Source of the DNA: a virus
IMG/VR virus record: IMGVR_UViG_3300030090_000435
Location: 1 to 25,838 of that record
DNA length: 25,838 nucleotides
Strand: one strand, 5' to 3'
Shown here: one piece after another, positions 1,401 through 25,838 of the stretch
Numbering within the stretch: the stretch's first letter is position 1
How the letters are laid out: each line of letters opens with the position of its first letter
Position numbers and translations under genes: made by a program
The notes under the pieces: model-generated
Database searches by the model: none
What the model was told of the DNA's origin: nothing
Seen by the model: the letters and a program-made list of their open reading frames with translations, nothing else

Positions 1401-2601
1401 TCAACAAATACTAGGCTTTTGCCTGAATGCAGAATTCTTCTCGCAAGTAAAAAACACTCTTGACCGTGACATGTTCACCAAAGAGATGCGAGATATCTTC
1501 GACACGATTGTTTACAGTCACACAAAGTATGGCACAACGATGACATCGACAGAGCTTGCTGCTTTGTTTGATGATCGCAATCCTGCCATGCCGTCAAGTG
1601 CGCGGGACTCTGTCCACGAGATTATTGTGCAACTGGAGTCGGGCAACCCTGACAATACAGACATGCACATTGACATGGTTCAGAACTTCTGGCTGCGTGA
1701 CCGCGCACGTCTTATTGGTGAAAAAGCAATAGAAATTTTCACTGGCGAAAGCGAAGAGTTTGGAGAGCTACAGCGCCTGATCGATGCTGTCGATGATGGC
1801 CGGATGTCGGACAAGACAACCTACACAGAAGTGGCAAGTGACCTTGACGAGTTGCTTGACGACGTGGCTGAAGACCCTGACTTTCCCTTTGATTTCAACC
1901 TGATACACGAAGAGGTGCCGGGTCTCGACCGTGGTAACTTTGGCATCCTGTTTGCCCGACCGGAAGTTGGCAAGACAACCTTCTGTTGTTTTCTTGCAGC
2001 GTCGTACATACGACAGGGCGTCAAGGTTGTGTACTGGGCGAACGAGGAGCCTGCTGATCGCATCAAGCTGCGTATCATCCAGTCCTTTTTTGAGGTGACG
2101 GACGAAGAGATGCGGCAACAGCGTGCCGTGCTGGCGCAGAGATATCTTACAGAGGTGGCTCCGTACCTACGGGTCATGGACTCGGTTGGCACGTCTGTCG
2201 AAGAAGCGGACGAGTATGCCAAGCTGAACAAGCCTGACGTGATGTTTATGGATCAGCTAGACAAGTTCCGCATCAAGGGCGAGTTCAACCGACAGGATGA
2301 GCGACTGAAAGCTATCTATGTGTACGCACGAGAGATTGCCAAGCGCAACAAGATGCTTGTGTGGGCTGTCAGTCAGGCAAGCTACGAGGCCCACGACCGT
2401 CAGTTTATTGACTACAGTATGTTGGACAACTCGCGTACAGGTAAGGCTGGCGAGGCTGACATCATCATTGGTATCGGCAAGACTGGATCAAGCGAGGTAG
2501 AAAACGACGTGCGCCACATCTGTGTGTCAAAAAACAAACTGAACGGCTGGCATGGTATGATCCACGCACAGATCGACATCAACAAGGGAGTGTACTTCTG
2601 A
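1360..2601 (+). CDS. Replicative DNA helicase (DnaB / T7 gp4 C-terminal type)
   Basis: This RecA-fold hexameric helicase (413 aa) would unwind the replication fork. The N-terminal half is helical and DnaB-like (SLDQQILGFCLN at about 12-23). The ATPase domain begins near 185: Walker A A199-R-P-E-V-G-K-T206 (Ala replaces the first Gly), WANEE at 226-230, Walker B VMFMD at 294-298, WAVSQ at 335-339, SRTGKAGEAD at 358-367 and a late VSKNKLNGW motif. The ATG at 1360 lacks a clear ribosome site. A TTG at 1381 in the same frame has AAGGGA 8 bases upstream and would shorten the overlap with the primase gene from 41 to 20 bases; I cannot decide between them. The stop overlaps the next start by one base (TGATG), suggesting coupled translation. 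Confidence 0.92.
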   Translation: MTKGTNTLKSVSLDQQILGFCLNAEFFSQVKNTLDRDMFTKEMRDIFDTIVYSHTKYGTTMTSTELAALFDDRNPAMPSSARDSVHEIIVQLESGNPDNTDMHIDMVQNFWLRDRARLIGEKAIEIFTGESEEFGELQRLIDAVDDGRMSDKTTYTEVASDLDELLDDVAEDPDFPFDFNLIHEEVPGLDRGNFGILFARPEVGKTTFCCFLAASYIRQGVKVVYWANEEPADRIKLRIIQSFFEVTDEEMRQQRAVLAQRYLTEVAPYLRVMDSVGTSVEEADEYAKLNKPDVMFMDQLDKFRIKGEFNRQDERLKAIYVYAREIAKRNKMLVWAVSQASYEAHDRQFIDYSMLDNSRTGKAGEADIIIGIGKTGSSEVENDVRHICVSKNKLNGWHGMIHAQIDINKGVYF

Positions 2602-3203
2602 TGAATGTTTTGACGTTTGACGTAGAGACAACCCATGTCGAGAAGCGTGGTGGTGGACACACGCCCCTGCCTTACTTTGGCAACAGGCTGGTATCAATTG
2701 GATACAAGTGGCTGCAAAGCAGAGTGGCATACGATTGTTACTATCATTCGACGGAGCCGCCTACTCCGGCTGCGACGGAAGGCTTCCAACTGGCACTGAA
2801 CTATGCTGACGTTCTCGTGGGCCACAACATCAAGTTTGACCTGACGTGGATACGAGAGTGTGGCTTTACATATGAGGGACATATCTATGATACGATGGTT
2901 GCGGAATATCTTTTGGCCCGTGCAAGACGTTGGCCTCTTGGACTTGCTGCTCTTGCAAAAAAGTATAACGTCACCCAAAAGGAGACGGACCTTGTGGAGC
3001 CGTATCTCAAGGAGGGCAAGACGTTCTACGACATACCGTGGGAGATAATAGAAGAGTACGGTCGTGCAGACGTGCTTGCTACGGAAGAGATTGCACTGAA
3101 ACAACTAGACGCCTATGGCGTAACATTCGAGGAGCTATACAATGAGCCTAGTGCCAACACTAAAGCTGTCGTTGGAGATGACCAACGTGCTGTCACAAAT
3201 TGA
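2601..3203 (+). CDS. DnaQ/PolI-type 3'-5' exonuclease (stand-alone proofreading)
   Basis: This 200-aa protein matches the DEDD exonuclease domain that is normally fused to family A polymerases. Visible motifs: Exo I FDVET (D7, E9), Exo II HNIKFDLTW (D80) and Exo III Y153-G-R-A-D157 (DEDDy type). It probably proofreads for the polymerase encoded next to it. In T7 gp5 and E. coli Pol I the domains are one chain; here they are separate reading frames overlapping by 62 bases, with the polymerase in the +1 frame and served by its own ribosome site. The last 20 residues (after about 180) lie in the overlap and do not look like part of the nuclease fold. The start is ATG at 2601, overlapping the helicase stop. 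Confidence 0.9.
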   Translation: MNVLTFDVETTHVEKRGGGHTPLPYFGNRLVSIGYKWLQSRVAYDCYYHSTEPPTPAATEGFQLALNYADVLVGHNIKFDLTWIRECGFTYEGHIYDTMVAEYLLARARRWPLGLAALAKKYNVTQKETDLVEPYLKEGKTFYDIPWEIIEEYGRADVLATEEIALKQLDAYGVTFEELYNEPSANTKAVVGDDQRAVTN

Positions 3204-4677
3204 ACGCAACGGACTGCGTATCAATCTGGAGACGCTTGCTGACATACGCAAGCAATACGAAGAGGAGATGCTGGAGCTAGAGGCGCGACTGATGGAGTTG
3301 GCCCGTGAGGCCATGGGTGACACGCCTATCAATCTGTCCAGTCCAGATGACCGCAGTGTCCTGTTGTACTCGCGTCGTGTGCGTGACAAGAAGGAGTGGG
3401 CGCGTATGTTCAATCTGGGACATGAGATGCGAGGCTCGACCATGAAGCCCAAGCAGCGCACTCGTATGTCGGAGAACGAGTTTCGCGGCATCGTACGTCG
3501 TCACACGGACGTGGTGTATCGCACACGGGGTGAGATGTGTCAGGAGTGCAACGGCACAGGCCGTATACAAAGCATCCGCAAGGACGGCAGTCCGGGCAAG
3601 GCCATGCGTGTGTGTAAGGCTTGTGGTGGCAGTGGCGTGTTTTACACGTCCACTGGCAGAGTGGCTGGCTTCAAGATCGTGCCACGCAACTCGTTTGACA
3701 CAGCGTCAGCAGGATTCCGCACTGACAAGACTACACTGGAGGAGCAACTTGAAGACTTGCAGGGGGATGCACATGAATTTGTTTCGGCGTATACTCGCTA
3801 CAACGCTCTCAAGACGTACATCAACACGTTCGTCGAGGGCATGGAAAACAATGTCGATGACCACGGCTTCATCCATCCGGAATTCATGCAGTGTGTTACG
3901 GCGACGGGTCGCCTTTCGTCTCGTAACCCGAACTTTCAAAATATGCCACGTGGTAATACCTTCGCAATACGCAAGGTTGTCGAGAGCCGCTTCGAGGGCG
4001 GCCTTATCATGGAAGGAGATTACTCGCAACTAGAGTTCCGTGTGGCTGGCTTTCTCGCAGGGGATAAGCAGGCATACGCTGACGTGCGAGACGGCACAGA
4101 CGTACACAGCTACACGGCGGACGTGATTGGTTGCACACGGCAACAGGCCAAGGCCCACACGTTCAAGCCTCTGTATGGCGGCACCACAGGCACGGATGCA
4201 CAGAAGCGATACTACCGTGCCTTCAAGGAGAAGTACGAAGACATCACCATGTGGCACGGGGAGTTGCAGCGACATGCAGTCAAATACAAAAAGGTCCGAC
4301 TACCATCCGGCAGAGAGTACATGTTCCCCGGATGCAAGTGGACAGAGTGGGGCACAGCCACTAACCGCACCGCCATATGCAACTACCCTGTGCAGGGGTT
4401 TGCCACTGCGGACCTTCTTCCTCTGGCTTTGGTGTCCCTACAGAAAACAATTACGGATGCCAACATCCGCAGTGTGATTTGCAACACGGTCCACGACTCG
4501 ATTGTCATGGACGTGCATCCAGACGAGAAGGACATGTGCATAAATATTTTGCAACACGCAATGCTGTCCTTACCGTTTGAAACCATTCGCAGATACGGAC
4601 TGACCTATGACATGCCAGTGGGCATAGAAATTAAAATAGGAAAAAACTGGCTTGACTTGGAAGAAGTTAGTTTGTAA
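3142..4677 (+). CDS. Family A DNA polymerase with inserted DnaJ-type zinc finger
   Basis: This is the replicative polymerase (511 aa), without an exonuclease domain. Polymerase motifs: TGRLSSRNPNFQNMPR before the palm, motif A GDYSQLEFR (D293), motif B on the O-helix R333-QQA-K337-AHT-F341-KPL-Y345-G, and motif C V-H451-D452-S453, where many relatives have HDE. F341 corresponds to Phe762 of E. coli Pol I, a state linked to virulent phages in published surveys. Between the N-terminal helices and the palm lie C133-QEC-NGTG and C158-KAC-GGSG, two CxxCxGxG motifs of the DnaJ central domain, enough for one zinc ion. This insert is known from HMO-2011-type phages; its role is not established. The start ATG has GAGGAG 7 bases upstream. 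The stop codon is also part of the next promoter's -10 box. Confidence 0.95.
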   Translation: MSLVPTLKLSLEMTNVLSQIERNGLRINLETLADIRKQYEEEMLELEARLMELAREAMGDTPINLSSPDDRSVLLYSRRVRDKKEWARMFNLGHEMRGSTMKPKQRTRMSENEFRGIVRRHTDVVYRTRGEMCQECNGTGRIQSIRKDGSPGKAMRVCKACGGSGVFYTSTGRVAGFKIVPRNSFDTASAGFRTDKTTLEEQLEDLQGDAHEFVSAYTRYNALKTYINTFVEGMENNVDDHGFIHPEFMQCVTATGRLSSRNPNFQNMPRGNTFAIRKVVESRFEGGLIMEGDYSQLEFRVAGFLAGDKQAYADVRDGTDVHSYTADVIGCTRQQAKAHTFKPLYGGTTGTDAQKRYYRAFKEKYEDITMWHGELQRHAVKYKKVRLPSGREYMFPGCKWTEWGTATNRTAICNYPVQGFATADLLPLALVSLQKTITDANIRSVICNTVHDSIVMDVHPDEKDMCINILQHAMLSLPFETIRRYGLTYDMPVGIEIKIGKNWLDLEEVSL

Positions 4678-11382: not shown

Positions 11383-14300
11383 TTACGGGATAGTAATGGG
11401 AAGGCCCGTTCCCATAGGGCCAGTTAGTGTTCCTGTCGGGGCATCCGGTATGTTCAGGGGTTGCCCTGCGGCAGTGTCCGGCGGGAATCCGGCGCTTAGT
11501 TTGTCCATCGGAGTTGCTGACACTGTAAAGGTTCGATCAGCAGCATCGATAACTTTTTTCTTTTGCGGCTCGTCCACACGGCTGGACAAAGCAAAGTGTT
11601 GTACAAGCGCCTCTGTAAACCGTGCATTTCTTTCTGGGGCAAGAGGCTTGCCTGTTCTTACAAGCTCTATGAAGTCTCTTCCGAGTTGGGGATCAGTTAA
11701 AACCGCAGTAAGAAACTCGTGATTGCTAAAACGCAGTTGCTGTAGCACGGCTTCCGTTCCAACGTACTGCGGACGAACAACGCCCCTGTTGATTGCATAG
11801 ATACGGCTGATGTAGCTTTCTACAGACAGAGCGCGGGGGATGCCCCGTACGTTTACTTTGCCCGAGTTCAATTGTGCTAGAGGATTGTCTTGCAACTCGA
11901 CAAGAACACCCGCGATAGCTTCCATGACCTCGTAGTTCTCATTGCCAAGGATAGCACGTGCTGTGGCTGCTTCTCCCGGAGTCTCCCCCAGATATTTTAT
12001 TAGCTCTTGTGGATTCTCTACCAGAAGATCAGTAAACGTGGTGGACACTTTGCCGTCTAAAGACTGATCTACTTTAGCTAACTTAGCGCCTGTTTTGGTA
12101 AATACTCTGCGACGTATGCCTTGCAGATATGCTGCACGTAGTATGTTGTCCACATCCTGTGATGTATACTTTTGTGTTCCGTCGGCGTTAGCAAGTTTCA
12201 GCATGGAAGATTTTATCGTCGTGTATCTGTCCATGCCCCCTTCAATCAAGACATCTGCGATATCGCTTGCTCGTTGATTGTCAGATGTCAGTCGGCCTAC
12301 AACACCTAAGGCGTCTTGCAAACCCTCTTTTAACTGTCGTGCGGGTTCGACTGCGGCAGCAAGCTGATCATCAATCAGTTTATTGGCTTCTTTGATTGCT
12401 TCGCTGTGGACCGCAGTGCCAACATTCTTTTCGTTAAATTTTGTAACATCGTCAATGAGATTGGGGAAGTTTACAAGAGGCACTTCTGTTACGCTGCCGT
12501 CAGGAGCCATCTCTACAACTTTAATATTCTCGTCGATTGTCTTGGCTATTTTGTTGATTTCGACTTCGTTTAGTGTGCCTGCCTTGCGGAGCCTGTCAAC
12601 TTCTTGTGCTAGAGCAACTTGCACGATAACTTTTTGGGATTCGGCAAACGGAGTGCCCTGCACGAGACGGCGAGTAGGCTTCGTGTCGCCGGGCAACAGT
12701 ACAAGCTGTCCTCCTGCATCGTGCATTGCCTGAATGTATTGAGTTGATTGTTCTGGATCAGTGAGCGTTTTTAGTGTTAGCCATTCTGACGGCAGCTTCT
12801 TTGTTTCTTGACCCGTTGGGAATCTTGCGCTAGGAACAGCTTCTTGTACAGAGACCCGTCCGTTGAACAGGCGTTGCTGTATGAACGATCCGCCCACACG
12901 ATCGTGGAAATCCTCTTTGTACTGTCGATAGTTTTGATTGGCACCGCGCAAGTATTCGACAAAAGACTCGGGTGCATTGTCTCCTATCTTTACAAACAGT
13001 TGTCCAATGGGGACGCCATCAACAGAAAACTGTTCAAACTTTGGCTGTATGGACTTACTTGACAGATCGTACATAAGTCCGGCTGCTGCACCGTCACCCT
13101 TCTGATTAAACTTGTGGGCTTGCTGCAATACAATCTGATCGAGTTTGGCAAGACCATCAGGCGACATGTCAAACAGAGACAAAGCATCAGCGTCATCAGC
13201 ATCCAACTCCTGCAGAGCTAATGCTATTTGTGCAGGTACACTGCGCTTCTTATTAAACACAACAGGGTTGTCCGGGTCCGTTTCCAGACTCTTACGTAGT
13301 TGCTTGTAAACGTCATCGAGTGTTCTACCACTCTGTTGAGCCAACTGTATGAAGATGGGTTCGCTTAGTTCTACTATTAGCTCGTCAACAAGGCCGCCAG
13401 ATGCACCCTTGCCTGTGAGGACGCTACCAACTGTGCTGTTAAAATCGCGTATGACACTAAACGCATTTACGGTGGGTTTGCCCTGCAGAGGGCCAGTTGC
13501 CGTGCTGTACACAGCTTTTGTTTTTAGAAGACGGTATGGACGGGTGGCATCGGCGTAACGAACTTCGTGTAATCCTTCGAGAGAAAAGGCGAACAAAGTG
13601 CCTGCATCGGCAGTCAGAGGTATGTCTGCAGCCTTTGCACCATCCGGATCGTTTATTAGTATCTCCTTACGTGGCACGGCAGGGGCACCAATCTGCTGTA
13701 TCAGCGTGTTACCCCGCTGGGCTATCGCTAGACTTATCGATGTTAAAGCACCCTCGGACAAGCGTTTGTATGCTTCTTCGTCGATTGCATTCTCTACAAA
13801 CAACTCTCTTTCCATCAAATTCCGAACTGCGATATTAAATGGAACGGTTGTTTGAGACTCGTCCATAGCCATGATACCGTCAGGGTCTACGACCTTACGA
13901 TTGAGAGTCAGGCTGTTCAAGTAATGATCCAGTCCCTCCTCTGTAATCGTTTTGATGTCTGTTTCTAGTTGTCCACGCAAGTCCTCTCCCTGCTTGGACA
14001 TACTCCGCATAAATGTAAAGAACATGTTTGCCGAGTCGGGAGATTGTCCTGCCTGTTGCGGCCCCTGTACAACGTCGGCTCCCATGTCTTCAATGAGCCT
14101 GTTCAATTCGCCATTCAGTTCGCGCAGTGTCAATTCGCTTTCTTGGAAAGCCTCAACAACTTTGGGATCGAATATCTCTCCCGCTGCCAGCCCTTGACGA
14201 AGAGTGTTTGCGAAGTGCCGCAGGGTAACTAAGTCTGTGACGACGGGAAGGGCTGCTTCAAGATACTTACGATCAATGCCCTGCGCCTCTAGCTTGTCAA

Positions 14301-16125
14301 AGTGAACCATAAGACGGGCAGCGTTACCTTCGATCATGCGCTGATATCCCGGGTTCTGCTTGGACATCTCGGTCACAAAGAACTCCAGTCGTTTCCTGTT
14401 ATCGCCAAATCCTCCTCTAAGAGCCATGCTTTTTATGGCCCTTAATCCTCTCGGAGTGCTGCCCTTTGCGGTGGACACGGTAAAGCCCGTGAACAAGCCT
14501 ATCAACGAGGCCAGCGCAGGATCGACCATTTCAAACTCTGCACCGAAGAAATGTTCAAAGGCAGCGGCACCTGTCAGCATATAATAATCCTGCACCTTTA
14601 GGTCGCGCAACTCTTTTGGTACTGCACTGTTCCGTTCAGCCAGATTCATCGTGTTCTTGTTTTCATTTATTTTGTCTTGCAGGGCGGCTATCTCCTGAAC
14701 ACGAATTTCCGAGGGATTTTTTGCTTGTGATCTACGTAGTGATCGCAGTGCAACGTATTGTTCTGCAAGGACGCCCCTGACGCCAGCTACTTCCGCACGG
14801 AATTTAGGCTCTAGCTTTGTGTCAGCAATTTGATATGCCAAAGCCAGACGAGATTCTATGTTACTTTTGGAGTAGTATGTACCCGTCAATGCCCGTCCCA
14901 AGAAGGGCACTGCGTCAACGATGGGACCAGATACGTTCTTTTGTCTTAACTTAACGAAGGACTCGAACAACTCGTCTGCTGTTCTGTCAGCGTCTATTCG
15001 TAGTTCGTTTGCTGCAAAAGTTTCAAACAGTGCAAGTTCTCTTGCAGACATGCCAGCACGAGCCGCAAAGGTAGCTCTCGACGGAGCCACTATTTCTGCA
15101 GCTAGTCGGGTTGCACGGGGCAACAAGCCCGTGTAAGTATAGCCCAGTCTATTAGCGGTCTCTATGTCGATGACGATACCCTTTTTGGCATATCTATCCT
15201 GCAGACTTTGACCCAGTGTAGGCCAGATGTCATCAATCACTTTTTGCCTGCCACTGAAGTGGGTGATGCTGTCCCGATCTTGTCCGGTGATATTCCCATC
15301 AAACCAGTCAAGGGTCTCCCCGACAAGATACAAACCTGCCTCTATCGTGCCCCTTCCTAAAATTTCTCCGGTGCCCATGACTATGTTTTCCAAGTCACCC
15401 ATAGTCGGATCATCCAATCTGTCCCGTATGATTGTGAGACGCCCTCTTTGACCTACACCCTGTTGAATAAGAAGATTGTTCAGGTATCCAGCGTATAAAG
15501 GACGACCAACTTTAGGATTAGACAGATTCGCACTTGTCATCATGGTTGCAAAACGAACTCTCTCTAGATCGCTTGGCGTCATATCAGAGGTGTTTATTTG
15601 CAATCCATTTTTTAATACGCCCGTGTTGAGATTTTCGGGCGGTTGATACGCTTCCATAATTTTTTTATAAAAGGGTATCTGTAATTCTATATCATCGACT
15701 ACGATTTTTTCTGCACCGAATTTGTCTAATCTGTCAACTCGTTGTGCAAGAGAATCTTCGGGCTTTAACGAGATGGGATTGCCGCGTCCATCTATCCCAA
15801 TAGTCGCCCGGTTTATCATTGCGACAGTTTCAGGATTACTAAAGTCGTAGACTTCTGCCATAGACACGTTGGGCAACACTTTGTCCCTGTCTATCGCATA
15901 AAAGGGATCACGTTCGACCTGTCCTCCCATTCCGGTTGCGCCTATACCCCCGGGCAGTTGAACGTCAAACATTGACTCGTCTACGGTTGTGATCCGGCTA
16001 GGATCAAGGACTTGAGCTTCCGGTTCAGGACGAGTTCCCCGCCGCGTCACCTTTGGCTCGTCTTTCTTCTTTTGCGAATCCAGTAGCTCTTGAAACTGTT
16101 GTGCTGCGTCACGAAGTTCGGTCAT
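11383..16125 (-). CDS. Giant virion protein, probable internal/ejection protein (T7 gp16-like position)
   Basis: At 1580 aa this is the largest gene here. The N-terminal 60 residues are polar and low in complexity; the rest is mostly long helical stretches with Gln, Glu, Lys and Arg. Weakly hydrophobic segments occur near 255-270 and 535-552 (LASLIGLFTGF). The last 30 residues are rich in Pro and Gly. I see no lytic transglycosylase motif. It follows genes of 200, 184 and 950 aa in transcription order; in T7 the internal core proteins are gp14 (196), gp15 (747) and gp16 (1318), which form the DNA-ejection channel. I infer the same role from size and order, not from sequence similarity. The start overlaps the upstream stop (ATGA). 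The TAA stop lies inside the next gene's ribosome site region. Confidence 0.85.
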   Translation of the reverse strand: MTELRDAAQQFQELLDSQKKKDEPKVTRRGTRPEPEAQVLDPSRITTVDESMFDVQLPGGIGATGMGGQVERDPFYAIDRDKVLPNVSMAEVYDFSNPETVAMINRATIGIDGRGNPISLKPEDSLAQRVDRLDKFGAEKIVVDDIELQIPFYKKIMEAYQPPENLNTGVLKNGLQINTSDMTPSDLERVRFATMMTSANLSNPKVGRPLYAGYLNNLLIQQGVGQRGRLTIIRDRLDDPTMGDLENIVMGTGEILGRGTIEAGLYLVGETLDWFDGNITGQDRDSITHFSGRQKVIDDIWPTLGQSLQDRYAKKGIVIDIETANRLGYTYTGLLPRATRLAAEIVAPSRATFAARAGMSARELALFETFAANELRIDADRTADELFESFVKLRQKNVSGPIVDAVPFLGRALTGTYYSKSNIESRLALAYQIADTKLEPKFRAEVAGVRGVLAEQYVALRSLRRSQAKNPSEIRVQEIAALQDKINENKNTMNLAERNSAVPKELRDLKVQDYYMLTGAAAFEHFFGAEFEMVDPALASLIGLFTGFTVSTAKGSTPRGLRAIKSMALRGGFGDNRKRLEFFVTEMSKQNPGYQRMIEGNAARLMVHFDKLEAQGIDRKYLEAALPVVTDLVTLRHFANTLRQGLAAGEIFDPKVVEAFQESELTLRELNGELNRLIEDMGADVVQGPQQAGQSPDSANMFFTFMRSMSKQGEDLRGQLETDIKTITEEGLDHYLNSLTLNRKVVDPDGIMAMDESQTTVPFNIAVRNLMERELFVENAIDEEAYKRLSEGALTSISLAIAQRGNTLIQQIGAPAVPRKEILINDPDGAKAADIPLTADAGTLFAFSLEGLHEVRYADATRPYRLLKTKAVYSTATGPLQGKPTVNAFSVIRDFNSTVGSVLTGKGASGGLVDELIVELSEPIFIQLAQQSGRTLDDVYKQLRKSLETDPDNPVVFNKKRSVPAQIALALQELDADDADALSLFDMSPDGLAKLDQIVLQQAHKFNQKGDGAAAGLMYDLSSKSIQPKFEQFSVDGVPIGQLFVKIGDNAPESFVEYLRGANQNYRQYKEDFHDRVGGSFIQQRLFNGRVSVQEAVPSARFPTGQETKKLPSEWLTLKTLTDPEQSTQYIQAMHDAGGQLVLLPGDTKPTRRLVQGTPFAESQKVIVQVALAQEVDRLRKAGTLNEVEINKIAKTIDENIKVVEMAPDGSVTEVPLVNFPNLIDDVTKFNEKNVGTAVHSEAIKEANKLIDDQLAAAVEPARQLKEGLQDALGVVGRLTSDNQRASDIADVLIEGGMDRYTTIKSSMLKLANADGTQKYTSQDVDNILRAAYLQGIRRRVFTKTGAKLAKVDQSLDGKVSTTFTDLLVENPQELIKYLGETPGEAATARAILGNENYEVMEAIAGVLVELQDNPLAQLNSGKVNVRGIPRALSVESYISRIYAINRGVVRPQYVGTEAVLQQLRFSNHEFLTAVLTDPQLGRDFIELVRTGKPLAPERNARFTEALVQHFALSSRVDEPQKKKVIDAADRTFTVSATPMDKLSAGFPPDTAAGQPLNIPDAPTGTLTGPMGTGLPITIP

Positions 16126-18974
16126 CTGTCTTTCACCCGACTTTCATGTAATATCATCAGTTGATTTTTCATCGCTTGAGGTATTTTATCACTTGCAATA
16201 AAGTCATCGTAGTCTGAGAATGAAAGAATAGCACCGCTGTCATCCTTTATGTCATCATTTTGCAGGAACAAATTCACACCGTTTAAGAATTCTTTGTGTT
16301 GTGCTTCGGGTATTCTGGGTCCGGCGGGAGCGTCACCTTCTGGATTCATCGTGGATACGTTTTCTCCATCGACGAACTCTATTCTGTTACGCAAGTTTTC
16401 TGCTACGCTGAAGCCTGTCTTAGTTTCCAAATCAGTCAAAATCATCGCATTCAGAACAACCTGATTATTCTTGTTTGACAAAGCCGCCCCTCTCTGCGCC
16501 CTATACATCAAATCGTCTCGAAGCAGGCTCATCACCGCAAATTCATTTTCGGGGGTGGACATACCGCCGTTCAAGAAGTTAAGAACATTCTGTACGTCTT
16601 GGTCGGATATTGTCCGTCCTCCTGTTCCACCCTGCAGAGCGGATGCAACGCTATAGGCAATGACGTAGTTTAGATATCGGCGTCTAGCTGCGTTGGCTGT
16701 GATAGAATTGGTGCTAACCATTTGCCTTTGGATTTCTGCTATGTCAGCAATCCTTTTCTTTCTTGCCTCGGCCTCTTTTGCTTGGAATGTTTCTTGGCTT
16801 TGTCCCGGATTGTAGAATGAAGAGGTGGCCCTTCCAAATTTTCCAAACTGATCTTGCACCATTGTCCCTACATCAGGAGACCCGGCATCAATGGCAGTCA
16901 CTACTTTTTCTGTGCTACTAAACAGGGACAGCGCACCCGAAATAACAGGGTTATCTTCGTCAACTCCAACTGATCCCAAGCCAACTCGTATACCTGCTTT
17001 TACGTTTTCCATAAAGCTGGACAGAGTTAACAACGCTTCTCCTGCACGCTGACCAAACGGTGTGCGCTCGTAAGTAGTTACGCCGTCTTCTTTCTTGATG
17101 ATAAAGATTTGCGACATGGCTTCCGTAAGCAGTCGGGATGCTTCTAGAGAGGAGCGTGCGATAGCTGCTTCCTCGGCCTGCATGTCATCAAATCGCTTGC
17201 CCTTGAAAGTTTTGTTTTTGAAATCGTTGACGCGATAAAAGGTGTCGAGATCAGCGCTTCTGTCTTCCAGTTGCGGAGAGAACACGCTGACCAAAGCGAG
17301 TTTGTCATTGAATGTGGGATGCACACTCTCGTTAACAACTCTACCATCAGCAAGTAATCTTGCTTGTGGTGATGCTCCCATTACAACAGTTGCCACTTGC
17401 TCTAGTTCTTTTGCGTTTGCTTCGTATCCGGGCACAGCAGGATCGTATGCAAGCGTAGCGTTTCTTAGGACGTTACCTGCAATAGAGTTGGAACTGGGAT
17501 TTGTAGATAACTGTGCTAAAGTTCGCAGCCCGTACTGTGTTGGCGCTGCGGCAAGAGGACTAGCAGGGTCTCCAAAAACAGAGGGGTACGAACGAACTGC
17601 GTTTCCTACCCGGCTTCTTGCTGTGGTTTCGCTAAAGCCACTATTGGCAGACCATTGGAGGAGCGCAGTAAAGTGATCCGCGTGCCTTGGCTCTGTTATG
17701 AACTGCGGTATGCCTACAGCCTTGCCATCTTCAAGGTCTACAACGAACGATGCGTTAAAGACAGGAGACCCTTCTCCTGCGCCCATGTTTTCGCCCAGTC
17801 GAGTAATCTCATCAGCAGCCATGTTTCTTGCACGAGAATAGAAATATTTGTAGAAGCTGTTGCCTGTTGCTGTGTTACCCTCCTTGTCAAACCTGTTTCC
17901 TACCTTAAAGTAAGTAGGGTAAGCGTACTGACTTACACTCATCAGCAAGTCCGGCTGTAGCATTAGACCCCTTTGTGGGTCAAGTATGCCAGCCTTCCGA
18001 CTTTCCTTTTCCAAAATGTCGTTGTACATGTGGTTGTAGACTGTGTCTAAACTGCCAGCGTTCATCGTTGTCCAGTCGAAACCTTCTCCGACCTTATTGC
18101 GGATGAAACGATCCATGCTTCTTTCATATTCATCTGTGCTTTTACTGGACGGAATAAACGTCTGTTCTTTTCCGTCGGCAGTCCACGTCAAAGGCGCTGA
18201 AGCAAACGCTCCCGTGCTTTCAGAAGCGGCCTTGATGCCGAGTGCAGCCATAAGTTGACTGTTCACTTCGTCGCTGTATATATACTGCGTCCGTTTTTTG
18301 TCTCCAAATATCATAGGTTTTGCCGATCCCGTAAGTATATTGAAATCGACGTCGTTATCTTGAAGACTTTTTACTCGCTTTTTAAGTGTATCCATACCGC
18401 CTTGTTCGTCATAAAAGAAATCGCCATCAGTTTCACCCTGCACTAAAATACGTGCAAAGGGACGAGACGGTTCTATTTGAACTGGGGCGGCTGGCTTTAC
18501 ATCCTTTTCAACAAGCCCCTCAAAGTAAGAAGGCATAAACTGTATATTTTCAAGTGAGCCGTTAGGCATTCTGGTAGCCCGTCCTACTCGTTGAAGACCA
18601 CCCATAAATTTGGCGTACTCCTCACTATTTTTATCTACTCCAGACTGTATCAAAAATTGCGACCATCCCTCTTGTGAAGTAGCTCCAATAGGGTCCTCGG
18701 CAAACAGTTTTGTTTTCGGAAGATACTCGGCACCTCTGGAGAAAACGTCTATTTCAAAGGGTTTTACTTCAGGAGACTCGGGATGGTTGACGATTTGACC
18801 CCCTATTTTAGTCGCAAAGGTCTTTGCATCCTCCGGAATCTCGTCGTCCAGATCATATGCAGTTACCCTGCCACCCTGCAGGGCGTACGTAGTCACTTTG
18901 TTCTCGCGCTCTTTGCGCTTGTTGGACTCGTGTCCCGCTGCCATAAAGTACATCAATTCGAGCGGACTAAACAT
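16122..18974 (-). CDS. Large virion protein, probable internal/ejection protein (T7 gp15-like position)
   Basis: This 950-aa protein begins MFSPLELMYFMAAGHESNK, with GGAGGAG upstream of ATG 18974. It is mixed in the first half and helical in the last third. A segment near 764-785 (YLNYVIAYSVASALQGGTGG, then RTISDQDVQNVL) resembles stretches seen in large structural proteins of marine phages. No signal peptide or enzyme motif was found. Its size and place before the 1580-aa gene suggest an internal core protein that leaves the head during infection; this is inference. The gene starts two bases before the end region of the 184-aa gene's stop (TAG at 18977-18975) and ends in an ATGA overlap, so translation is coupled along the cassette. 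Confidence 0.83.
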   Translation of the reverse strand: MFSPLELMYFMAAGHESNKRKERENKVTTYALQGGRVTAYDLDDEIPEDAKTFATKIGGQIVNHPESPEVKPFEIDVFSRGAEYLPKTKLFAEDPIGATSQEGWSQFLIQSGVDKNSEEYAKFMGGLQRVGRATRMPNGSLENIQFMPSYFEGLVEKDVKPAAPVQIEPSRPFARILVQGETDGDFFYDEQGGMDTLKKRVKSLQDNDVDFNILTGSAKPMIFGDKKRTQYIYSDEVNSQLMAALGIKAASESTGAFASAPLTWTADGKEQTFIPSSKSTDEYERSMDRFIRNKVGEGFDWTTMNAGSLDTVYNHMYNDILEKESRKAGILDPQRGLMLQPDLLMSVSQYAYPTYFKVGNRFDKEGNTATGNSFYKYFYSRARNMAADEITRLGENMGAGEGSPVFNASFVVDLEDGKAVGIPQFITEPRHADHFTALLQWSANSGFSETTARSRVGNAVRSYPSVFGDPASPLAAAPTQYGLRTLAQLSTNPSSNSIAGNVLRNATLAYDPAVPGYEANAKELEQVATVVMGASPQARLLADGRVVNESVHPTFNDKLALVSVFSPQLEDRSADLDTFYRVNDFKNKTFKGKRFDDMQAEEAAIARSSLEASRLLTEAMSQIFIIKKEDGVTTYERTPFGQRAGEALLTLSSFMENVKAGIRVGLGSVGVDEDNPVISGALSLFSSTEKVVTAIDAGSPDVGTMVQDQFGKFGRATSSFYNPGQSQETFQAKEAEARKKRIADIAEIQRQMVSTNSITANAARRRYLNYVIAYSVASALQGGTGGRTISDQDVQNVLNFLNGGMSTPENEFAVMSLLRDDLMYRAQRGAALSNKNNQVVLNAMILTDLETKTGFSVAENLRNRIEFVDGENVSTMNPEGDAPAGPRIPEAQHKEFLNGVNLFLQNDDIKDDSGAILSFSDYDDFIASDKIPQAMKNQLMILHESRVKDR

Positions 18975-21889: not shown

Positions 21890-22924
21890 TTACAACTCCG
21901 CATCCGCAGTTCCTATGGCTTTCCAACTTTCATTTCCACCTGAAGAAGTTGCTGTAACGCGGCAACTAAATCCGCTTACATCGATGAACAAAGAATTGAA
22001 ATTACTAGAAGGGTATCTTGTAGTAGATGTTCCATCAGTTCTAGTTATAGTTGGAGTGCTTCTCATATGAGCAGGGAAAGAAAGTTGTACTGATTGATGG
22101 TAGCTTGACCCTTCTGAAACACCCGTCCACCCAGCTTCCCATGTGGTGAAATACCTCTGACACCTAGCCAACTCATCGCCAAACGATCGATGCTCAAACG
22201 GCGTGGCCTGTTCGCCAAGCTCCCACTGAACTCCTGTGATGTAAAACTCGGGTGACGTACTTTGCAACCAACCCGTCGTGTTAAAAACACGCTTAGTGTC
22301 ATCTGTGCTTGCCCACGCAGAGTCATTAAATGTCCCGCTTGTATGGTTAGTGCCAGTATCAATGTAAATATTAAGTGTCATGGAGGTGTTTGCGTCAGTA
22401 TCCAAACTGCCAGATGTATCACCTTCAAAAGTGAGAGTTTTACGCTCCCATGTATTAGCAGAGTTAATCGTGTAAGACTTTGAAAGCTGTCGAGTGTTGT
22501 CGTTGTCAACAAGTTCAACAGTATAAGTAGAGGCAACAGAGGATTTTACAAAAAACGATACTGTAGTTTTCTTGGCACCTGATGTGCCTTTTGCAAGTAG
22601 TTGTAAATTTTGACCTTCAAATTTTTGTTGTATAACAAGTTTGTCAGCAGCATCTAATGAAGATTCAGATGCGTCCATACTTATTTTCTGTGAATAACCG
22701 AACCCTTGACCAGAAGGCAAATCTGTTGACCTATCCACATCTACGTTCCCGTCAGTGCCACTGTGATTAATGCGCCAGCGGTCACAAAGGTAATTTCCCG
22801 AACTAATAGAGTCTATAGTTGTGCCACGTTGCCAGACTTGCATCGCGCCGTTGATAATGATGTTCCTGTCTGACAACGCCGACTGCGAACTAATCAGTGC
22901 GGCGAGTTCTGCTGCCTTACTCAT
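21890..22924 (-). CDS. Tail fibre protein with carbohydrate-binding-like beta domain
   Basis: This 344-aa protein begins MSKAAELAALISSQSALSDR, then NIIINGAMQVWQRGT and YLCDRWRIN, a known opening of phage fibre proteins with a jelly-roll, CBM-like domain. The middle (about 80-230) alternates Thr/Ser-rich strands (KTTVSFFVKSSVASTYTVEL), and ITGVQWELGEQATPFEHRSF followed by ELARCQRYF closes the domain as in relatives. The last 100 residues are a separate Ser/Thr-rich part, possibly the tip. It probably binds the host surface. It overlaps the third fibre module by four bases (ATGA). Host range is likely set by this gene and its neighbours. Confidence 0.87.
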   Translation of the reverse strand: MSKAAELAALISSQSALSDRNIIINGAMQVWQRGTTIDSISSGNYLCDRWRINHSGTDGNVDVDRSTDLPSGQGFGYSQKISMDASESSLDAADKLVIQQKFEGQNLQLLAKGTSGAKKTTVSFFVKSSVASTYTVELVDNDNTRQLSKSYTINSANTWERKTLTFEGDTSGSLDTDANTSMTLNIYIDTGTNHTSGTFNDSAWASTDDTKRVFNTTGWLQSTSPEFYITGVQWELGEQATPFEHRSFGDELARCQRYFTTWEAGWTGVSEGSSYHQSVQLSFPAHMRSTPTITRTDGTSTTRYPSSNFNSLFIDVSGFSCRVTATSSGGNESWKAIGTADAEL

Positions 22925-23298
22925 GCGAGGTCTCCGTGCGTTGCAATCATAACCGTGTCAGCGTCAGCGTTTGCTCTGTCGCTGTGTTGAATATTAAAAA
23001 CTCTTGCAAATGAGGTCTGGTTGTCACCATGAAATGTAGATGCGAAGGTGTCATTAGCACGAGATGTGCTTGTCAAAGCATAATCATCGTTTCCATAGTT
23101 TGAACTGAAGTTTACGTTGTAATTGCCCGTGCTATTGTCAGTAAAACTAGCCACATTTAGGCTGTCTCTAGCAGTTAATGTTCCTGAACTGTCAAAGTGT
23201 GTCCAAGCCTTCGCGCTCCCCCCTGCAACAAAGCTGGTAGCAATGCTGTTGTTCCCACTGGCGTCTTTTAGTGTGTTTACTCTAAGTTCACTAGCCAT
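22921..23298 (-). CDS. Tail fibre module protein, paralog 3
   Basis: This 125-aa protein is the third of three tandem paralogs. It begins MASELRVNTLKDASGN, has AKAWTHFDSSG and the shared core DSLNVASFTDNSTGNY, and ends in HGDLA. The core followed by strand-rich Thr/Ser/Asn sequence looks like a small beta-structured fibre knob. The start shares a base with the stop of paralog 2 (TAATG). Its own stop is TGA, overlapping the next gene as ATGA, where the other two use TAA. The product is likely to be a virion fibre component; whether the three proteins form hetero-oligomers is unknown. Confidence 0.82.
   Translation of the reverse strand: MASELRVNTLKDASGNNSIATSFVAGGSAKAWTHFDSSGTLTARDSLNVASFTDNSTGNYNVNFSSNYGNDDYALTSTSRANDTFASTFHGDNQTSFARVFNIQHSDRANADADTVMIATHGDLA
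22923..22938 (-). repeat. Fibre-module 3' block, copy 3
   Basis: ATGCGAGGTCTCCGTG on the plus strand encodes the HGDLA end of paralog 3. It is identical to the blocks ending paralogs 2 and 1. The base before it differs from the other copies, changing the stop from TAA to TGA. Confidence 0.85.
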
Positions 23299-23702
23299 TA
23301 TGCGAGGTCTCCGTGAAGTGACATGGCATGAGCCGAATCAGAAAGTGCGTTACTTCCACCGACAGTTCCGATTGACGCCTCTGCACCAGATGTAGAAAGG
23401 GTTGTTGTTTCTACTACGATAAAGGTAGTGTTTCTCCCACCGCCTGTTGGGCCAGCAGTAGGTGCGTAACTAGCATTTGCCATATTGTTGGTATAGGCAT
23501 AGGTTATGATTCCAGTGCCATCATCTGTTACAGATGCCATGTTAAGGCTGTCATCCAAAGCAAAATCGCTGCCCATCTCATACCACACCTTACACAGCCC
23601 CTGCTGCAAATTCGTTGTGGTCGAGTTGCCCTCGCCGGTGATCGCAATAGACCCAGCCGTGGTTACGCCTGTGATCGTATCGACTTTGAGTATACTTGCC
23701 AT
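23298..23702 (-). CDS. Tail fibre module protein, paralog 2
   Basis: This 134-aa protein begins MASILKVDTITGVTTAGSIA, has CKVWYEMGSDF and the core DSLNMASVTDDGTGI, and ends in HGDLA. It is the most diverged of the three in the middle (a Gly-rich GPTGGGRNT loop, then FIVVETTTLSTSG) but the start, core and end match its neighbours. This fits duplication followed by divergence, or exchange, of the surface part. The start and stop share bases with the adjacent paralogs (TAATG at both ends). A role in host attachment is inferred from context and fold-like composition. Confidence 0.82.
   Translation of the reverse strand: MASILKVDTITGVTTAGSIAITGEGNSTTTNLQQGLCKVWYEMGSDFALDDSLNMASVTDDGTGIITYAYTNNMANASYAPTAGPTGGGRNTTFIVVETTTLSTSGAEASIGTVGGSNALSDSAHAMSLHGDLA
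23300..23315 (-). repeat. Fibre-module 3' block, copy 2
   Basis: The same 16 bases end paralog 2. Together with flanking bases, 22 bases (23296-23317) are identical to 23700-23721, covering the HGDLA codons, the stop and the next start codon. Confidence 0.9.
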
Positions 23703-24085
23703 TATGCGAGGTCTCCGTGAACGCTACAGCCAGCGTATGCGCCGTCTTGATGGGACGATGTGTTATGACATCGCATCCTTACCGTTGAACTAGATGCTAT
23801 CCCTGCGCTGCCAACCAAGTCTGCGCCGCTATTAGTATCAGTATCTGCACCCATAGTAACCGCCGCCATGAAACGTATAGACTCCATAGCGTTAGACATA
23901 TTCATGTCATAGTCACCCGTACCGTTGTCTGCCATTGAAGCAACATTAAAACTGTCTGCGGCAGCAGCACCACTTGCATCACCTTCTGCGTGAACCCACG
24001 CCTTCGCAGCGTGTTGCTTCGTCAGCCCTACCGGCCCCGTACCCGCCTTATCCGCAATCGTGTCTACATTCAATACGCTGGTCAT
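23702..24085 (-). CDS. Tail fibre module protein, paralog 1
   Basis: This 127-aa protein begins MTSVLNVDTIADKAGTG. ATG 24085 is chosen because GGAG lies 6 bases upstream and it overlaps the preceding stop as ATGA; an in-frame TTG at 24097 is not favoured. It has AKAWVHAEGDASG, the core DSFNVASMADNGTGDY and the end HGDLA. Two Cys in the distal half (RMRCHN, YAGCSV) are unlike its paralogs. The N-terminal V-D-T-I-A-D-K-A-G-T-G stretch is common in marine phage fibre proteins. It is the first of the three paralogs to be transcribed. Confidence 0.82.
   Translation of the reverse strand: MTSVLNVDTIADKAGTGPVGLTKQHAAKAWVHAEGDASGAAAADSFNVASMADNGTGDYDMNMSNAMESIRFMAAVTMGADTDTNSGADLVGSAGIASSSTVRMRCHNTSSHQDGAYAGCSVHGDLA
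23704..23719 (-). repeat. Fibre-module 3' block, copy 1
   Basis: The same 16 bases end paralog 1. The extended 22-base identity with copy 2 spans 23700-23721. Conservation at the gene junction, against diverged gene bodies, would suit recombination between modules. Confidence 0.9.
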
Positions 24086-24540
24086 ACGATGCTCCAATAT
24101 CCGTTAACAGTGACGGTGGCACTCTGCGTAATCGGCCCTGCCGACAGACCGTTCTCGTCGCTGTCAATCGTGATGTCTGCGCTGATGGTCTGACCGTTGA
24201 GACGGATAATGGAGTTGTTGCCCTTAAACGGGTAGCGTGTGTCGCTTTCCGTCTTGGTATACGAGTTTGCCACAGAGAAGGTATCGTAGATGACCATCTC
24301 CACCACGTCGTTCAGGGACGCACCCGTGACCAATACAACCGTCGTGCCTGTTGTAGCAGTGTAGTCCGTGCCGGGCTTCAAGAGAACACCGTTCTGGTAC
24401 ACGTCCATGTACAGGCTGTCCTGATACGTCAAGACCTTACTGTCGGCATCACTGCCACTAAACGAGGTCTGCCCCGCAGTCGCCTGATATACGAAGCGAT
24501 TGCGGAAACCTACTGCGGGGGATTTACCTATGTACGGCAT
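24082..24540 (-). CDS. Tail fibre / attachment protein
   Basis: This 152-aa protein begins MPYIGKSPAVGFRNRFVYQ and continues ATAGQTSFSGSD, an opening I know from many marine podovirus and cyanophage fibre proteins. The first 90 residues look like a small beta domain (VYQNGVLLKPGTDYTATTG, then VVLVTGASLNDVVEM), typical of repeated fibre shaft or linker units. A short helix (YTKTESDTRY) and a beta-rich tail follow. It starts by sharing a base with the stop of the S74 fibre gene and ends in an ATGA overlap with paralog 1. The protein may link the longer fibre to the distal modules; that order is a guess. Confidence 0.85.
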   Translation of the reverse strand: MPYIGKSPAVGFRNRFVYQATAGQTSFSGSDADSKVLTYQDSLYMDVYQNGVLLKPGTDYTATTGTTVVLVTGASLNDVVEMVIYDTFSVANSYTKTESDTRYPFKGNNSIIRLNGQTISADITIDSDENGLSAGPITQSATVTVNGYWSIV

Positions 24541-25544
24541 TATGCGTCCTCTAGTGTCTTAACACGGGCCTCAAGGGCTTCAATTTTTGCAGCAGATTCT
24601 TTTAATGCGCCAACCAAAAGCGGAACCAGCTTACTATGGTCAATTTGCTGGTAAATCGGGTTGCCGTCACCATCAACTGCATCCTTAGTGCCTGTGACTG
24701 CTTCCGGCACGATAGCCTGCGCCTCGTGTGCAAGAAAGCCGTCAACCGTTGTGTCAGCGTCTTCAATGAAATGAAACCGCTTTGGTGACAGTGCTTTGAC
24801 ACGGTCGATTGCGCCGGTCATGTCCACGATTCCATCTTTAAGGCGATAGTCTGACGATGTGTTATATGCAACGGCTGATGTAGTGATGCTAATTGAACCT
24901 TTGAAAGAACCGGCTCTGTGAAAGTTAGTTAGTTCGCCGCTATCACTTCTATTCAAACTAAGAGAATATGTAGTGTCAGCACTCAAGAAGAGACGGCCAG
25001 TGCTTCGCAAACAAGTGCCGTGTGTAGTGTTGCCAGCGCCGGGGGTTACTGATGAAGATTGCCCCGCGAATATATCCCCATTGGTGCCAACAATTAGCCC
25101 TGAATTAGTAGCGCCACCGGCTCTTATGTTTACATTGTTGGCTGCGCTGCCATCAAATCCTACCAAGTCAATCTGACCATCAGTCTGGCTGTTGATGAAT
25201 AGGCCCGTGCCATTGTTTGCACTTGTAACAAACTTTGCAATGTCGCCGCTTGCGCTAACAGAGTGATTAAAAGCTCCGGCTTGGGTTATTTCAATTGGTG
25301 TAAAAAATCCACCTGACCTATCGTCGTCACAAGTAAGAATATTCAAAGAACCGCCGCTAACTTGAAAGCCCCAGAACTGGTCGTTTGCGCTTGCGTCAGT
25401 GTCTTGCAAGAACAGTTGCGTGTTGCCGGTAGACTTGAAGACAGAAGCGTTGGCGTGAGTAGATGTGGTTACATCTAATGCTCCGGTTGTAGTCAAGGAG
25501 TCTAGAGACCCCGTGCCTTCTCCTGTAATTTTTGTCAACGCCAC
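24540..25544 (-). CDS. Tail fibre with C-terminal S74 intramolecular chaperone
   Basis: This 334-aa fibre protein ends in a peptidase S74 domain, which trims itself off after helping the trimer fold. The dyad is visible in S231-D-Y-R-L-K236, followed by FLAHEAQ (270-276), PEAVTG, YQQIDHSKLVPLL (about 298-310) and a C-terminal coiled coil (KIEALEARVKTLED). The first 215 residues are beta-rich (Gly, Ser, Thr, Asn), as expected for a shaft. I chose GTG at 25544 because AAGGAG lies 7 bases upstream; a frame to 25595 only shadows the upstream gene. Cleavage should occur just before S231, giving a mature fibre of about 230 residues. It is the longest fibre gene here and probably a main receptor-binding component. 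Confidence 0.92.
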   Translation of the reverse strand: MALTKITGEGTGSLDSLTTTGALDVTTSTHANASVFKSTGNTQLFLQDTDASANDQFWGFQVSGGSLNILTCDDDRSGGFFTPIEITQAGAFNHSVSASGDIAKFVTSANNGTGLFINSQTDGQIDLVGFDGSAANNVNIRAGGATNSGLIVGTNGDIFAGQSSSVTPGAGNTTHGTCLRSTGRLFLSADTTYSLSLNRSDSGELTNFHRAGSFKGSISITTSAVAYNTSSDYRLKDGIVDMTGAIDRVKALSPKRFHFIEDADTTVDGFLAHEAQAIVPEAVTGTKDAVDGDGNPIYQQIDHSKLVPLLVGALKESAAKIEALEARVKTLEDA

Positions 25545-25551
25545 TGTCTTT

Positions 25552-25557
25552 CTCCTT
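25552..25557 (-). promoter_or_regulatory. Ribosome binding site for the GTG-started S74 fibre gene
   Basis: AAGGAG on the minus strand lies 7 bases before GTG 25544. It overlaps the stop codon of the upstream gene (25558-25556), so the two genes are likely coupled in translation. Confidence 0.75.
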
Positions 25558-25838
25558 ATGCGTAAGGCGAGTCGCCAAGTACACTTGTATCCCAAGCTGC
25601 CTTGAGTTTAGCGATTGTGTCTGCGTTAGTGATTGCAGATGCAGCCGGTGCATCACGCAGTGCCTTCTTCTTTGCTACAGAGGCAGTCTTGGCAGACGCA
25701 TCGTCAGCCTCAAGTGCCTTCATGTATACTACGTCCTCTGCCTCTAGCAGCGGCGCACGAACTTCGCGGATTTTGTCCTTGAAGATTACTTTGGCTGCAT
25801 CCATGTCTTCAGAGATGACTTTGCCACTTAATGACCAT
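25556..25838 (-). CDS. Tail-associated protein, partial (runs off right edge)
   Basis: The frame is open from the right edge to the TAA at 25558-25556. The first Met is at 25804, but 11 further codons upstream (ending GKVISED before that Met) read like coding sequence, and no good ribosome site precedes the Met, so the true start probably lies beyond the window. The visible part is a charged helix (AKVIFKDKIREVRAPLLEAE), an Ala/Lys/Asp-rich middle and a C-terminus reading KKALRDAPAASAIT and TIAKLKAAWDTSVLGDSPY. The R-D-A-P and T-I-A-x-L-K-A-A-W phrases recall tail proteins of the XkdW or tail-assembly type beside fibre genes. That assignment is weak. Confidence 0.75.
   Translation of the reverse strand, partial: WSLSGKVISEDMDAAKVIFKDKIREVRAPLLEAEDVVYMKALEADDASAKTASVAKKKALRDAPAASAITNADTIAKLKAAWDTSVLGDSPYA

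Follow-up and report, generated by a model that had tools for sequence, protein, structure and literature searches.

A tail-fibre array in an HMO-2011-related phage whose small tips are probably replaced as cassettes on fixed stems

HMO-2011-type phages are an abundant group of ocean phages. Among described systems of fibre variation, the distal tail-fibre locus of the T-even phages is said, after the work of Tetart, Desplats and Krisch in 1998, to recombine between conserved motifs. In lytic E. coli phages, conserved DNA motifs of 20–95 bp around the receptor-binding domains were proposed as recombination hotspots, and the motifs showed no correlation with the observed exchanges (PMC10408124). 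The accessible part of another study describes the shuffling of receptor-binding-protein domains, in which a conserved N-terminus is joined to an exchanged C-terminal domain, as recent and ongoing (PMC10684548). In marine phages, host-recognition genes such as tail fibre and C1q genes form under-recruiting variable islands, the metaviromic islands, according to the available text of PMC3909814. The available portions of the papers on HMO-2011-type phages hold little on the tail region, and a search of open-access PMC text found no paper on the array described here.

The window, a stretch of 25,838 nt of viral DNA (positions 1 to 25,838 of the IMG/VR record IMGVR_UViG_3300030090_000435), contains an ordered row of fibre genes, which we read, with a probability of about 0.83, as the array of an HMO-2011-related phage in which the stems stay fixed while recombination at two edges exchanges the tips as cassettes. 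The array resembles the T-even locus in its mode of working, as variable adhesin segments are bordered by short conserved motifs that appear to act as exchange points. In the T-even phages, however, these motifs belong to a single adhesin locus, whereas the tips of the array would move among many slots of an ordered multi-gene row, and one joint doubles as stop, ribosome-binding site, and next start. The array shares with the lytic E. coli phages the exchangeable receptor-binding domains bordered by conserved DNA, but here the breaks in identity fall exactly at the motifs, and the unit, a small tip, is common to paralogous slots. Neither the fixed stem row nor the shared joint is reported in the accessible part of the domain-shuffling study. 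The metaviromic islands likewise hold variable host-recognition genes, but their available text reports neither a cassette structure nor joints, and the word "recombination" is absent from that main text. New here are the ordered stems that draw on one tip pool across slots, and a joint in which the end of the protein, a ribosome-binding site, and the start of the following gene are combined.

Layout of the array and its phage frame

Reading of the open reading frames confirmed three tandem short tail-fibre genes on the minus strand of the window. Module 1 (23702..24085; MTSVLNVDTI..., 127 aa) consists of an MTSVLN stem and an exchangeable tip with the HGDLA end, module 2 (23298..23702; MASILKVDTI..., 134 aa) of a MASIL stem and a tip, and module 3 (22921..23298; MASELRVNTL..., 125 aa) of a MASEL stem and a tip. 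The ATG at 24085 is a better start for module 1 than the TTG at 24097 given in the ORF list, because it overlaps the upstream stop. All three modules match the profile of PHROG 11355 (tail fiber protein), with E values of 7.9e-14, 2.9e-13, and 7.1e-17, and the V[DN]T[IL] motif, the DSxNxASxxDxxTG core, and the HGDLA end that the initial annotation ascribed to the three paralogs are seen in all three translations.

The 5′ joints, on the same strand, are formed by AKAW codons in module 1 (23996..24007) and module 3 (23203..23214), and by CKVW codons in module 2 (23583..23594). The 3′ edge of the tip is the GDLA joint (GGAGACCTCGCAT), which also contains the stop, a GGAG, and the overlapping next start. 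The 16 bases said to be identical at the three ends were confirmed, CACGGAGACCTCGCAT being exact at 22923, 23300, and 23704 on the minus strand. This 3′ joint lies at 23704..23719 in module 1, where it comprises the HGDLA end, a Shine-Dalgarno-like GGAG, and a TAATG overlap with the next gene; at 23300..23315 in module 2, in the TAATG register; and at 22923..22938 in module 3, in the ATGA register with the next gene. A longer identical run that includes the next ATG is indeed present at the two TAATG junctions, but its length is 24 bases instead of the 22 first given; at the third junction the genes overlap by ATGA.

Two frame genes on the minus strand border the modules. On their 5′ side lies the gene of an adapter-like fibre protein (24082..24540; MPYIGKSP..., 152 aa), which is 84–99% identical among the relatives retained, and after the array follows the MSKAAELA fibre (21890..22924, 344 aa), whose N-terminus is kept and whose body is variable in relatives. 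The slot before the adapter (24540..25535, minus strand) is occupied in the window by an S74-peptidase (endosialidase chaperone) fibre, in L215 and L038 by a GDLA tip on a MALT stem, and elsewhere by other proteins, so that the architecture at this place is variable. The array runs past the window: a fourth exact joint, at record position 26768-26783 (L125), ends a gene with an MSTILVNTLTG stem, whose tip shares 90% identity with a MASEL-stem tip in L214. Elsewhere in the window, the exonuclease and polymerase parts of a family A DNA polymerase lie in two overlapping frames (2601-3203 and 3142-4677), the polymerase part having a weak match to the DnaJ CXXCXGXG domain, and the structural region encodes two very large proteins of 1580 and 950 aa (11383-16125 and 16122-18974) with no PHROG match.

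The succession of stems is nearly fixed among the relatives: MTSVLN is followed by MASIL in 99/137 cases, MASIL by MASEL in 83/88, MASEL by MSKAA in 84/121, and MALT by MPYIGKS in 19/21. The gain and loss of whole genes suggested by the initial annotation does not fit this order, which therefore argues for tip replacement. Judged by the sequence of its tail frame, the window phage is an HMO-2011-type relative, with the same stem order and an adapter that is 87% identical. Like the window, Puniceispirillum phage HMO-2011 (GU557055) has the frame order, the GDLA ends, and one exact joint; unlike the window, it has different tips, and its MASVLKV stem carries a C1q domain in place of a tip (L121, 8125-8649). 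Stems or slots therefore accept unrelated domains too. A scan of genome contigs with a 20-mer gave a single match, a contig of 22.5 kb (L364, PAHC01000002.1) that was assigned to a Rhodobiaceae MAG and contains the joint and a MASILRV-stem module; the contig is likely phage DNA, and the match is too little for host inference.

Tips shared between stems

Contigs were gathered by the exact joint and by a degenerate HGDLA–TAATG pattern, and a joint-independent collection was made via two genes, the conserved adapter (24082-24540) and the gene that follows the array (21890-22924); 306 loci were left after the removal of duplicates. With the joint relaxed to xGDLA, 857 modules were obtained from 257 contigs. 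Tip pairs were defined by at least 85% identity over 200 nt on different contigs.

In an all-against-all comparison, relatives lose their DNA similarity about 100 nt after the start of the module and regain it at the joint, and exchange of whole genes was rejected on this ground. As far as the sequences tell, the swapped unit is the tip, the C-terminal ~95 aa (~290 nt), with the [A]KxW motif on its 5′ side and the GDLA joint on its 3′ side. The recombining module system first proposed for these genes thus stands with regard to exchange at conserved joints and has to be narrowed with regard to the unit, which is the tip only, with a second, 5′ joint at AKxW. The tip of module 1 (23702..24007, minus strand) is 94% identical in DNA to a MASIL-stem tip of L016 that precedes a different gene, the shared identity starting at the AKAW codons. 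Copies of the module 3 tip (22921..23214, minus strand; nt 94-376 of the gene) stand on a MASIL stem in L015 and L214 (96.5% identical) with a different next gene, and on the MALTNLTKG stem of the MALT slot in L215 (85% identical) with the adapter next. For the tip of module 2, no shared copy was found among the collected modules. Near-identical tip pairs stand on different stems in 64/145 cases, 61 of the 64 also having a different next gene, and 46 of the 96 tip families present in at least two contigs occur on at least two stems. Hybrid modules and exchange in relatives, which the initial annotation had proposed to look for, are accordingly present and include two tips of the window.

The edges of the shared segments are sharp. 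In pairs on different stems, the mean identity climbs at AKxW from about 0.5-0.6 to 0.86 (n = 43), and past the GDLA joint it drops from 0.88 to 0.62 and then to 0.39 (n = 61). Different next genes follow 36 of the 55 upstream families at GDLA joints, compared with 35 of the 216 at other gene boundaries, where many cases stem from shifted starts. Among pairs that share 85-99% of the last 150 nt, the next start is unrelated in 58-89% at GDLA joints; the same measure gives 8-18% at ordinary boundaries of the same contigs, many of these being shifted start codons. In line with a T-even-like mode of working, the same tip was found in different stem and next-gene contexts, with identity breaking at conserved motifs, a pattern that points to recombination. 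These observations refute, as a full explanation, a history free of exchange, in which old duplications diverged vertically and their ends were held by the GDLA peptide and by selection on the ribosome-binding site of the next gene, since the same tips stand on different stems and identity breaks exactly at both edges. A small conserved gene at 25556-25804 of the window (LGDSPYA end, PHROG 20196, weak tail-fibre-assembly matches) also has many different next genes in relatives and marks another exchange boundary, one without GDLA.

Nearly all of the hybrids come from metagenomic contigs, as would be the case if assemblers had joined unrelated contigs at the short identical joints. We give such chimeras scarcely any weight: the tips shared across stems are mostly 85-97% and not 100% identical, and therefore diverged after the exchange; the same hybrid occurs in L015 and L214, which are from separate IMG/VR samples; and the stretch of full identity at either edge spans only about 12-24 nt. 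Furthermore, frame, joint, and a shared tip are also present in an isolate, HMO-2011, whose MSTLKAD-stem tip is 84.5% identical to a MASIL-stem tip in L095.

The 3′ joint at the DNA level

At least 120 IMG/VR stretches contain the exact 16-mer CACGGAGACCTCGCAT, with as many as 5 copies in a single contig and nearly always at a stop/start overlap, and chance is excluded for this reason. The joints occur in direct orientation only. The GGAG is located 7 nt (ATGA register) or 10 nt (TAATG register) ahead of the next start and is also found at other junctions of the array, and part of the conservation of the joint is probably translational, reflecting this GGAG before the overlapping next start. 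It is at this point that vertical divergence of old duplicates finds its support, because GDLA is invariant and the GGAG spacing, recurring at other junctions, can explain the near-fixed GGA codon. The GAC, the GCA, and the rare CTC codons, however, are explained neither by the GGAG site nor by the peptide.

In loci fetched only via neighbouring genes, the joint codons are GGA in 97%, GAC in 91%, GCA in 92%, and CTC in 47%, against ~20%, ~35%, ~38%, and ~5%, respectively, in the overall usage of the same genomes. The exact 15-mer is present in 39/108 HGDLA/NGDLA joints of loci fetched only via protein neighbours, for which the product of the genome codon frequencies predicts well under 1%. Codon homozygosity for Gly, Asp, and Ala is 0.97, 0.85, and 0.84 in the joint versus 0.54, 0.61, and 0.44 for the invariant codons of the same residues in the adapter; in the Leu column it is 0.36 in the joint versus 0.37 for the Leu codons of the adapter, so that the joint is not more uniform there overall. 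Within genomes, the silent Leu codon of the joint agrees at 0.47 versus 0.30 after shuffling, a value that 0/1000 shuffles reached, and such agreement is absent in the Leu controls from stem and tip. This homogenisation within genomes would be the trace expected from repeated recombination through the joints, and it speaks further against divergence free of exchange, which we regard as very improbable. Amino-acid constraint alone, named in the initial annotation as the explanation that could overturn it, therefore fails, given joint codons far from genome usage and a silent Leu codon homogenised within genomes.

Tip fold, selection, and the course of exchange

An AlphaFold2 model of module 3, built with 93 aligned modules, reached a pLDDT of 81.5 and predicts a β-sandwich at residues 29-121, which coincides with the exchanged segment, with lower confidence for the stem. 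Viral structure matches of the tip fold include many phage tail-fibre proteins; the fold matches in the PDB, to phage tailspikes, were weak, with a best E of 0.05, and searching PDB sequences with a profile yielded no useful match. That the tips bind host surface receptors is suggested by their annotation as fibre proteins, by their fold, and by the way they vary.

Within a slot, the mean ungapped identity is 0.31-0.32 for tips, which are unrelated at the DNA level, and 0.63-0.72 for stems. Tips so different within one slot could also have arisen if positive selection on rapid point mutations were the main driver and exchange played a secondary role. The dN/dS within tip families, however, is 0.15, similar to the 0.18 of the stems, which indicates purifying selection; positive selection was rejected on this ground as the main source of diversity and retains very little probability. 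The elevated nonsynonymous change between joints that had been anticipated was accordingly not seen, and the diversity and new specificities would therefore come mainly from cassette replacement, not from point change. As to internal duplication within a genome, tip pairs at the same locus with at least 75% identity were not found in the first module set, where few were expected in any case. A diversity-generating retroelement, which would rewrite the C-termini from a template with the joint as its homing-initiation sequence, is superficially similar in having variable C-terminal domains with a fixed GC-rich end. It has next to no probability, as the tips differ across the whole ~290 nt and by homology blocks and show the low dN/dS given above; this candidate was rejected because neither the record nor 15 relatives searched yielded a reverse transcriptase.

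For the cassette replacement of tips on fixed stems, the following course may be envisaged. The slot-specific N-terminal stem (~28-40 aa) is the probable docking part, followed after AKxW by a predicted β-sandwich tip of ~95 aa with the GDLA end. Tips would most likely be replaced via homology-directed or annealing recombination between co-infecting relatives, with the AKxW codons or the conserved stem serving as the edge on one side, and the joint together with the conserved next start on the other. Since the joint encodes the GDLA end and also contains the ribosome-binding site and start of the following gene, any tip with the standard joint would leave the ordered translation of the array undisturbed. 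Genes for an endonuclease I of the Holliday-junction resolvase family and for a Cas4-type exonuclease are present in the window, but no enzyme can be named for the exchange because endonuclease I was found in only 3/15 relatives searched. A stronger version, in which a dedicated and frequently acting exchange keeps the joints and the array is a combinatorial display with a shared tip pool on about ten ordered stems, seems to us unlikely. From the sample of 857 modules, Chao1 puts the tip pool, at 85% identity, at about 3,400.

Tip swapping, as far as it can be read from these genomes, is probably a route by which HMO-2011-type phages keep altering their binding. The AKxW and GDLA boundaries make fragmentary fibre annotations a readable stem/tip code, and both the frequency of tip exchange in nature and the tip content as a host predictor become directly testable. 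A set of ordered stems on which small tips are freely replaced would account for many recognition surfaces on one phage backbone.
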